In this document: positions 54,307 to 60,962 of the stretch, in pieces | Layout of the letters: every line of letters begins with the position of its first letter | Numbering within the stretch: the stretch's first letter is position 1 | Origin: an uncultured beta proteobacterium | Lineage (GTDB): Bacteria > Pseudomonadota > Gammaproteobacteria > Burkholderiales > SG8-41 | Reading direction: 5' to 3' | NCBI GenBank assembly: GCA_902825845.1 | Contig: CADECM010000003.1 | Location: 75,028-139,027 of the forward strand | Length of the DNA: 64,000 bases | Notes under the pieces: generated by a model | Databases searched by the model: none | Told to the model about the DNA's origin: nothing | What the model saw: the letters and a program-made list of their open reading frames with translations, nothing else | Position numbers and translations under genes: made by a program

Positions 54307-54801
54307 TCAGGGCAGCTTGACGGGATGGGTGAAGACCCAGTCGCGATCCTTGACCGGCGTATGGCAGCCAACGCATTCCTGCACAAAATTCGCGTCCTTA
54401 CCATAGGGCTTCTGTTCGGCGCCCAGCCAGCGGGCGTAGCCCCAGCCGCCGGTATCCTTGAAGCGCTTGCTGTCCTTGATCATGAATTCGGCATGCACAA
54501 ATGCCGCCGGTTCAGTGGCGGTCGGAAAGCGGTCATGCTGTTTGCCCTTGAACACCGTCTTGCCGAGTATTGCGCCGTCCGGCCAGGGATTGGTTTTGCC
54601 TTCGCGCGCGGCCTTGATCGCCACGTCATTGCCCAGCACGGCGCGCAGCGTGCCGTTGTCGCTGCGATGGTGAACGGACAACACGCGCCAGTCCTTGTAG
54701 CCTGCGGGCAAGGTAATCCCGTTGGGCGCGGGGTCCGCGCCGAATGCCGAAGCGGCCACCAATCCCAGTCCTGCCAATCCCATTCTTAGCAATCCGTGCA
54801 T
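54307..54801 (-). CDS. Cytochrome P460 family protein
   Basis: A protein of 164 residues: a signal peptide (GLAGLGLVAASAFGAD), the cytochrome P460 domain (LPAGYKDWRVLSVHHRSDN, HAEFMIKDSKRFKDTGGWGY) and the c-type haem motif CVGCH near the C-terminus. P460-type cytochromes oxidise hydroxylamine or related N compounds or act as haem proteins in detoxification. AGAAGGAAA precedes the ATG. A perfect palindrome, TTTATCGATAAA, lies 32 bases upstream. Confidence 0.9.
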   Translation of the reverse strand: MHGLLRMGLAGLGLVAASAFGADPAPNGITLPAGYKDWRVLSVHHRSDNGTLRAVLGNDVAIKAAREGKTNPWPDGAILGKTVFKGKQHDRFPTATEPAAFVHAEFMIKDSKRFKDTGGWGYARWLGAEQKPYGKDANFVQECVGCHTPVKDRDWVFTHPVKLP

Positions 54802-54832
54802 CCGATTTCCTTCTGATGTGCGTAATCTGAGG

Positions 54833-54844
54833 TTTATCGATAAA
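54833..54844 (-). promoter_or_regulatory. Palindrome upstream of the cytochrome P460 gene
   Basis: TTTATCGATAAA is a perfect 12-base palindrome, 32 bases upstream of the ATG, in otherwise GC-rich DNA. It is a candidate operator; no specific regulator can be named. Confidence 0.4.
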
Positions 54845-54995
54845 ACGTGAATCAGCAGTGTTACCTTGCCGAAAACAGCGAGAGCAGTTGAATTATTCCA
54901 ATCGCTGCGGTATTGCGTCGTGACGACGGCTGTCATGTGGATGCTGACAGTCCCGGCGATTGTCGCGATGACGGTGATCGCCGTGCGAGCGGCTG

Positions 54996-58448: not shown

Positions 58449-59627
58449 TCAGTCCCCGTCGCGCTGGGCCGCTCTGCGCAGCGCGGTGGAGGATACATCA
58501 GCACGAAACCGCGACTCCGGAATGCTGGTGAAAAGATCGCCGTAGGCGGCGAGTCCGGGCAGGTCGTCGGCGATTTGAAAGCCGGCACCGGTGAGGCGGC
58601 CGGCCACCAGAAAGCGCGCGCCCAGCGCGCGCAGTTCCCCGATTGCCGCTTGCATGCGCGCTTCGGAGTCGCCGTAAAAGCGCGGGTCGATCAGCCGTGC
58701 CGCAGTGTCGAAGCCCACCACAAACGTCGTGCCGGGAAACAAGCGCGCCTTGTCGACAAACAGCGGCGCGCAGGTGATGGCCAGCAGCCCATCGTGAAAT
58801 TGCGCGATGCGTTCTTCGATGGAATGAAAATCCAGGCGTGGTTTGTCCGCGTTGGCGATGGTCAGTTCAAACGCCACGGGCCCGCCGAGCATCGTTTCGG
58901 CTACCTCGCGCAATTCGCGATGACCGGCGTGCACCGGGTTGAACGAGCCGGGTATCAACCCCAGTGGCCGCTCGGCCAGATGCGGCAACACCTCGCCGTG
59001 AGGGAGCAGCCATACATGCGAGCGGTGGCCTGTCCACACCTCGCGGATCAGCGCGCGCGGGCGCACCACTTTGTGGTGCACTGTTTCACCGGGGAGAAGG
59101 GCATGCGACGGTGCCGGGTCGAGCGCGGCAGCGTCGAACAAGGCCTCAAGCGCAAGATCTGCCACCAGTGTTTCCTCGGCCACGCGGGATCGCGCACCCT
59201 TCGCGAGGGTAAGGTGTGTCAGGCGCGTCTCGTGATCGGTCTGCGTGGCGATCCAGCAGCGATGCGCGCCACGCTTGGGCGTATCGCTGGCGAGCGACGC
59301 GGTGCAGGCAACGCCGATCAGGTCCCTTGTCTCGCCCGCAAGCCGCGCCGCGCGTTGCCATGCCACGGCGGCCATCATCAATGCGGTCTCGGACGAGCAG
59401 AACGAATCCGGCTCGCGCGAGAGCCACTGCGCGAGCGACGCGCCGGCGTACGGCACGATCGCCTCAAGCACCGAACGCGATCCGCCCGGAACCGCGAGTA
59501 AGCGCGAAATCGCCGCCGATCCGCCGCCGGTTATGGCAAGCACCGCTTGCCTGCCGCTGGCGTGGAAGGCGCGGATGCGAGTTTCCCAATGGGTCACGCT
59601 GCCGCTTGCAATGCTGGATTCAGTCAT
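58449..59627 (-). CDS. Fusion of CinA-C-like (NMN deamidase) domain with NadD-like nucleotidyltransferase
   Basis: A protein of 392 residues. Residues about 25-165 resemble CinA C-terminal NMN amidohydrolase (TGGGSAAISRLLAVPGGSRS, DLIGVACTASLASDTPKRGA). Residues about 220-392 form a nucleotidyltransferase of the NadD/TagD type (LIPGSFNPVHAGHRELREVA, with the HxGH motif near 233-236, and DVSSTALRRA near the end). A combined deamidation of NMN to NaMN and adenylation to NaAD is possible. The gene is divergent from the TA region; the start codon at 59627 lacks a strong ribosome-binding site. Confidence 0.85.
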   Translation of the reverse strand: MTESSIASGSVTHWETRIRAFHASGRQAVLAITGGGSAAISRLLAVPGGSRSVLEAIVPYAGASLAQWLSREPDSFCSSETALMMAAVAWQRAARLAGETRDLIGVACTASLASDTPKRGAHRCWIATQTDHETRLTHLTLAKGARSRVAEETLVADLALEALFDAAALDPAPSHALLPGETVHHKVVRPRALIREVWTGHRSHVWLLPHGEVLPHLAERPLGLIPGSFNPVHAGHRELREVAETMLGGPVAFELTIANADKPRLDFHSIEERIAQFHDGLLAITCAPLFVDKARLFPGTTFVVGFDTAARLIDPRFYGDSEARMQAAIGELRALGARFLVAGRLTGAGFQIADDLPGLAAYGDLFTSIPESRFRADVSSTALRRAAQRDGD

Positions 59628-60222: not shown

Positions 60223-60645
60223 TCAAGTACCGATCCAGGGGTTTAGCGTTGGCACGCCGGTCAGCTCAAAATCAACGATGTTACGCGTAACCACGGTCAT
60301 GCCGTGCACCAGCGCTGTCGCCGCGATGAGTCCGTCGCGAACCGGGCGTGGGTCAGGCACGTGGAGATTTGCACTTCGCAGTGCCACCGCGGTATCGATT
60401 GCCAAAATGCGGCCCGCGAAGGCTGGCAAGACGTGGCTGTTGAGCCACGTGCGAAATAACGCGCCTTGTGACGGATGGCGCCGTTCGACGAGTAACACGC
60501 CGATCTCCAATTCCTGAATGCTGATCACGGACAGATACAGATCGCCGGCGTCCCTGTCGCCAGCCCATGCCGCAACGCCAGCATCCGCCTTTCCGGCGCG
60601 AATCTTGCGCAATTCGGAGACGACATTGGTATCGAGCAAGTACAT
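60223..60645 (-). CDS. vapC: PIN-domain toxin (VapC family)
   Basis: A protein of 140 residues of the PIN ribonuclease family: MYLLDTNVVSELRK (first acidic residue), ISIQELEIGVLLVERR (second acidic), and LHVPDPRPVRDGLIAATALV (later acidic residues). It is the toxin of a type II toxin-antitoxin pair and cleaves RNA. Its start overlaps the antitoxin stop by one base (TGATG). The TTG three bases earlier is a less likely start. Confidence 0.93.
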   Translation of the reverse strand: MYLLDTNVVSELRKIRAGKADAGVAAWAGDRDAGDLYLSVISIQELEIGVLLVERRHPSQGALFRTWLNSHVLPAFAGRILAIDTAVALRSANLHVPDPRPVRDGLIAATALVHGMTVVTRNIVDFELTGVPTLNPWIGT

Positions 60646-60899
60646 CAATAGAGCGCTGCCGCTTGTGCGCGATCGCGCAGGGACGGGAGTTCCAATTCAA
60701 TGTCTTCGATGCCCGGCATCGCCAGCAGATCGGCGATCTTTGTACGCCGGCGGGTGATCTTTTTGTATTCATCAAACGTCAATAGCACGTGCGCCGGCTT
60801 GCCGCGATCCGTAATGAATACCGGGCCGGCCTTGGCCGCTTTCTTGGCCTTGCTGGCGTCCTGATTGAATTGGCGACTCGAAAGCGTCGTGATGGTCAC
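60645..60899 (-). CDS. Phd/YefM-family antitoxin
   Basis: A protein of 84 residues starting with GTG: SRQFNQDASKAKKAAKAGPV followed by FITDRGKPAHVLLTFDEYKK is the DNA-binding Phd/YefM fold, and IEDIELELPSLRDRAQ is the toxin-binding tail. It neutralises the PIN toxin and represses its own operon. The start at 60899 is preferred over 60941 because AGGTGAT lies upstream and the homologous region begins here. Confidence 0.93.
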   Translation of the reverse strand: MTITTLSSRQFNQDASKAKKAAKAGPVFITDRGKPAHVLLTFDEYKKITRRRTKIADLLAMPGIEDIELELPSLRDRAQAAALY

Positions 60900-60962
60900 A
60901 GTATCACCTGGTATTAACGGAGAATGTAGGTACGTTACCACAAAGATTATGGGTAGACCAAT

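Follow-up and report, generated by a model that had tools for sequence, protein, structure and literature searches.

The 64,000-nucleotide window analysed here encodes a two-domain protein, P0001, which associates an N-terminal half related to CinA/PncC with a C-terminal nucleotidyltransferase (Table 1). The earlier note reported this ORF without naming its strand; our analysis confirms that it is real and places it on the minus strand. The C-half matches CTP_transf_like (residues 224-279, 25 bits, above the Pfam cut-off of 21). The N-half matches CinA (PF02464; residues 32-159) with 21 bits, just below the gathering score of 23.5, and with 23.6 bits when P0001 is scored together with its neighbours in frame. 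Both domains are kept together in relatives sharing 29-83% identity. Furthermore, purifying selection on the N-half is as strong as on the C-half: among members from Burkholderiales, dN/dS estimated by the Nei-Gojobori method, with partly saturated synonymous sites, is 0.11-0.22 for the former and 0.09-0.23 for the latter, and the linker is far more variable than either half. The domain matches, the joint conservation and the dN/dS values of both halves therefore indicate that the ORF did not arise by chance. Since the relatives of P0001 begin at its residue 11, a GTG codon, and since its first ten residues are predicted to be disordered (pLDDT below 50 in the AlphaFold model), the protein likely comprises 382 amino acids and this GTG may be its true start.

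Table 1. Features of P0001 and of other genes of the window
Feature	Position in window	Strand	Residues of P0001	Basis
Two-domain protein P0001, 392 aa	58449..59627	minus		ORF translation
P0001 from alternative GTG start, 382 aa	58449..59597	minus		start of relatives, disorder in model
N-half, CinA/PncC fold	59118..59600	minus	~10-170	fold and residue comparison
Variable linker	58971..59117	minus	~171-219	lowest identity between relatives
C-half, NadD/NMNAT-type nucleotidyltransferase	58452..58970	minus	~220-392	Pfam, fold, conservation
GSFNPVHAGH			227-236	C-half motif
NADKP			259-263	C-half motif
GxDTxxR			305-311	C-half motif
SSTxLR			379-384	C-half motif
Stand-alone MoCF (COG1058-type) protein, separate from P0001	22768..23529	plus		PF00994, E 5e-24
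VapBC-type pair (PIN toxin, Phd/YefM antitoxin)	60223-60941	minus		
Cytochrome P460 family protein	54310-54936	minus		E 3e-39

The AlphaFold model of P0001 is confident (pLDDT 86.7, pTM 0.82) and contains both folds, which confirms the fusion of a CinA-C-like domain to a NadD-like nucleotidyltransferase that had been proposed from the sequence. The N-half aligns with CinA/PncC structures with Z 15-16.5 and a Foldseek E of about 1e-5, the closest fit detailed being to 2a9s (Z 16.5, rmsd 2.8 over 152 residues). The C-half aligns with NadD and NMNAT structures with Z of about 8-12, for instance 11.8 for NadD of Mycobacterium tuberculosis and 11.2 for human NMNAT1; CoaD reaches 7.2, CCT 5.7, and cytidylyltransferases all remain below 6. 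The structural check suggested by the earlier note thus places the C-half with nicotinate/nicotinamide mononucleotide adenylyltransferases and not with cytidylyltransferases. Judging from the predicted model, it belongs with the nicotinate branch of the NadD/NMNAT superfamily, ahead of CoaD and cytidylyltransferases. A search of the PDB by sequence with P0001 gave no significant match.

The two ATP-binding motifs of NMNATs, HxGH and SxxxxR (within GSFNPVHAGH and SSTxLR), are nearly invariant across the family. The C-half shares with NadD its fold and the HxGH and SxTxxR motifs. However, NxDKP and GxDTxxR, which are typical of the P0001 family, are the C-half's own, and NadD coexists with the fusion in many carriers, including the genome of the window. 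The NadD model TIGR00482 scores 16.4 bits on P0001 for a curated cut-off of 112.45, the CoaD model of NCBIfam is far under its cut-off, and no NadM model is matched in NCBIfam with E values of up to 1 allowed. The NadM-Nudix proteins (PRK05379), which are found in Deinococcota genomes devoid of P0001-type proteins, combine a one-step route from NMN to NAD with a fusion to a domain of NAD-recycling type, as we propose for P0001. However, the two show no convincing sequence match (hhalign probability of 0.8% with a NadM-Nudix), the partner domain in P0001 is CinA-like instead of Nudix, and the domain order is opposite. We take yeast Pof1 (YCL047C) to be a possible relative of the C-half. Pof1 is known to form NAD from NMN (PMC13191266) and carries T/HxxH and SxxxxR motifs, as does the C-half. 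The papers on Pof1 that were consulted make no mention of CinA. Our literature search found no paper on this CinA-like/nucleotidyltransferase fusion and no match for Arabidopsis At2g01220, which presumably is a CinA-like domain plus a nucleotidyltransferase.

The N-half shares the fold of PncC/CinA-C deamidases (A. tumefaciens 2A9S, T. thermophilus CinA 4CT8/4CTA), together with the Tyr and Arg that bind phosphate and a Thr corresponding to T105. By contrast, it lacks their catalytic Lys and, in most members, their Ser; their GxAGP loop is replaced, a new SDxPKRGxHR motif is present, and the partner domain is a nucleotidyltransferase instead of the MocF/COG1058 domain of CinA. In A. tumefaciens CinA, the S31A, K63A and R145A mutants are inactive and Y58F is nearly inactive (PMC5384747). 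In an alignment with E. coli PncC, the positions of the Ser31/Lys63 dyad are occupied in P0001 by Thr33 and Leu65, and hhalign with the same protein gives an identical register. The dyad Lys is missing in all of the about 50 aligned degenerate members, being replaced by Leu, Met, Phe, Val or Gln. Most of them have Thr or Ala in place of the Ser (Ala in all Deinococcota members), which is retained in only three rows of the alignment (L032, L033 and L059); the copies from two genomes discussed below, G090 and G342, have this Ser and have lost the Lys. The NMN deamidation that the earlier note attributed to P0001 is thus not supported. The equivalents of Tyr58 and Arg145, both ligands of the NMN phosphate, are kept in nearly all members (with L150 as an exception); P0001 itself retains Tyr60, T109 and Arg146 or Arg148. 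Two family motifs, SDxPKRGxHR and KGARxRxxEE, are strongly conserved beside the old pocket. The N-half is thus maintained by selection, though, judging from its residues, not as a canonical deamidase.

The genome of the window encodes a stand-alone PncC with an intact dyad, a canonical NadD and, furthermore, a 426-aa frame whose CinA domain is weaker. Since it keeps PncC and NadD, P0001 is an addition in this organism and NAD there does not depend on it. This genome also carries a second CinA-C paralogue whose catalytic Lys is replaced by Leu (L024, G000:C144:3011-3469). The CinA N-domain protein noted elsewhere in the window is real, being a MoCF protein; the further claim that the usual CinA is split here does not hold, the PncC, the CinA paralogue and the 426-aa CinA frame being encoded elsewhere in the genome.

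Scanning genome contigs and searching selected genomes revealed full-length relatives in the genus and family of the window (Burkholderiales), in Gammaproteobacteria, Acetobacteraceae, Planctomycetes and Deinococcota. In most groups the P0001-type protein occurs only sporadically: three of the 369 genomes of the class sample encode it (that of the window included), as does a single one among the 385 sampled from the class to which the Acetobacteraceae member belongs, namely that member itself. By contrast, it is encoded by 31 of the 111 genomes sampled from the phylum group that includes the Deinococcota member. In the nucleotidyltransferase tree, many branches of which are weak and from which we claim no order of fusion events, the Deinococcota members form one group (SH-aLRT 93). 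This distribution suggests horizontal spread and one long-established lineage, Deinococcota. Clustering of the ORFs around 35 loci revealed no conserved NAD-related neighbour gene. A VapBC-type pair lies upstream of the fusion gene in the window, and a PIN and Phd/YefM pair also adjoins the relatives in L010 and L011; the window also carries a gene for a cytochrome P460 family protein. Four proteins from Planctomycetes (L060-L063) carry a P0001-type nucleotidyltransferase whose N-terminal domain is either of another kind or not recognisable at all.

In Deinococcota, none of the 11 fusion-bearing genomes tested has a NadD, their best matches reaching 25-38 bits for a cut-off of 112. Above the cut-off for CTP_transf_like, these genomes yield a short CoaD-like frame, the fusion itself and a third protein, which is RibF in the nine genomes typed; the third frame of G831 was outside this typing, and G811 also encodes HldE. 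No NadM was seen in the fusion-bearing Deinococcota tested. All five fusion-free genomes examined for these enzymes encode NadD or a NadM-type protein: two have no NadD and carry a NadM-type protein recognised by NCBIfam in G734 and, in G732, by eye from its GRFQPLHNAH start. In the latter genome, the NadM-type frame (L170) adjoins a frame that resembles, by eye, nicotinamide phosphoribosyltransferase. Furthermore, no CinA match exceeds 60 bits in any of the 16 fusion-bearing genomes sampled, vs all of the 10 fusion-free ones (each at 85 bits or more), in counts that ignore shared ancestry. Genes absent from draft genomes may correspond to missing sequence.

Another pattern emerges from Pirellulaceae, 149 genomes of which were searched with L020 as query. 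In eight of them, PncC is fused to the P0001-type nucleotidyltransferase, the Ser/Lys dyad being kept in the seven fusions aligned (L103-L107, L109 and L110). The eighth PncC-nucleotidyltransferase fusion, a frame of 384 aa in G1341 (L108), stands outside the dyad alignment. In six others (L133-L138), PncC and the nucleotidyltransferase are encoded by adjacent genes on the same strand. In about 22 genomes the nucleotidyltransferase lies in a long frame, and the 16 frames checked all have the degenerate two-domain form. A canonical PncC is found in two of the 22 long-frame genomes vs 18 of the 24 with a short nucleotidyltransferase (Fisher p 6e-6; these counts were taken manually from a single table, include all 22 long frames although 16 were checked, and ignore ancestry). 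Hence, the degenerate protein tends to occur without PncC and the bare nucleotidyltransferase with it. Both the fusions with PncC and the gene pairs would be equally compatible with a nucleotidyltransferase using NaMN.

The nature of the substrate was addressed with G090, a gammaproteobacterial assembly of 0.9 Mb that is 97% complete, was read whole and encodes the fusion protein. NadD and PncC were not found in it by family model. NadA, NadC, PncA, PncB and NadE were not found in the whole assembly with single E. coli queries, which detected no NadK either, so that their sensitivity may be limited and distant homologues can escape. The only SGGxDS proteins of G090 are Rho, TilS and MnmA. A NadB-like match was rejected, being the succinate dehydrogenase SdhA. 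Since no NadE is seen in G090, NaAD would be a dead end there, which favours NMN. We therefore infer that NMN rather than NaMN is the substrate, a choice for which sequence alone gives no preference; the NaMN proposed by the earlier note appears the less likely of the two. The second genome, G342, was read over about 0.8 of its 1.3 Mb, and absences there were not counted. Its PnuC-family gene (in L271:1982-5605), considered as a nicotinamide riboside importer, was dropped as evidence: genes for a TonB-receptor-like protein and an APH-like kinase adjoin it, and the transporter may import thiamine instead.

Two routes of NMN recycling have been described in bacteria, PncC followed by the deamido pathway or direct adenylylation by the NMN adenylyltransferase NadM (PMC3680494). 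The explanation that we favour, and hold to be reasonably probable, is that P0001 is an NMN adenylyltransferase carrying a pseudo-deamidase domain. The C-half would convert NMN and ATP to NAD and PPi. The N-half would be a former PncC/CinA deamidase that lost its dyad and kept its ligands of the NMN phosphate, and whose present role is probably to bind NMN, be it for capture, oligomerisation or regulation. NMN, released for instance by NAD-dependent DNA ligase, would thus yield NAD in one step, so that neither its deamidation nor the deamido pathway would be required. The organism of the window would possess this route in addition to PncC and NadD, whereas in some lineages it appears to replace both. 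The genome patterns fit such a direct route; we infer both the catalysis and the role of the N-half.

Other explanations share part of this evidence. P0001 could be a NaMN adenylyltransferase with a non-catalytic N-half, i.e. a replacement of NadD that still needs NadE. The C-half model lies equally near NadD and NMNAT1, and in Deinococcota the protein takes the place of a missing NadD, but this explanation is unlikely: no NadE is seen in G090, replacing NadD alone leaves the anticorrelation with PncC unexplained, and the genome of the window already has NadD. The bifunctional chain initially proposed, in which the N-half would convert NMN to NaMN and the C-half NaMN to NaAD, agrees with the folds of both halves, with the intact-dyad PncC fused to or next to the same nucleotidyltransferase in Pirellulaceae, and with the absence of canonical PncC from most genomes carrying the degenerate form, as expected after a replacement. 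It is nevertheless quite improbable, since both residues needed in A. tumefaciens CinA are substituted in P0001, with Ala at the Ser position in Deinococcota and the Lys in no member, and since the NadE that would complete the deamido route is not seen in G090.

A further explanation would be that the N-half now catalyses another reaction, for instance on a damaged or alternative nucleotide, which the C-half would serve instead of ordinary NAD synthesis. The new motifs SDxPKRGxHR and KGARxRxxEE beside the old pocket and the purifying selection are consistent with such a function, but genomes lacking NadD and NadM would be left without any recognised NAD-forming adenylyltransferase, which makes it very unlikely. 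Returning to the NMN adenylyltransferase that we favour, there is about an even chance that it constitutes a distinct class apart from NadD, NadM and NadR, with a pseudo-deamidase NMN-binding domain. Such a class would have spread by horizontal transfer and taken over from NadD and PncC in much of the Deinococcota, and some streamlined gammaproteobacteria would have no other enzyme that forms NAD.

Cells that make or recycle NAD from mononucleotides all need an adenylyltransferase. If true, our proposal would explain genomes that apparently lack nadD, and the CinA domain would have turned from a deamidase into the partner of an enzyme thanks to which deamidation is no longer needed. The two states found in Pirellulaceae, with an intact-dyad PncC fused to or beside the nucleotidyltransferase, make this functional link testable. 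P0001 is of interest mainly because proteins of its type have apparently taken the place of NadD and PncC; it seems to represent a variant, so far undescribed, of an enzyme of core metabolism.
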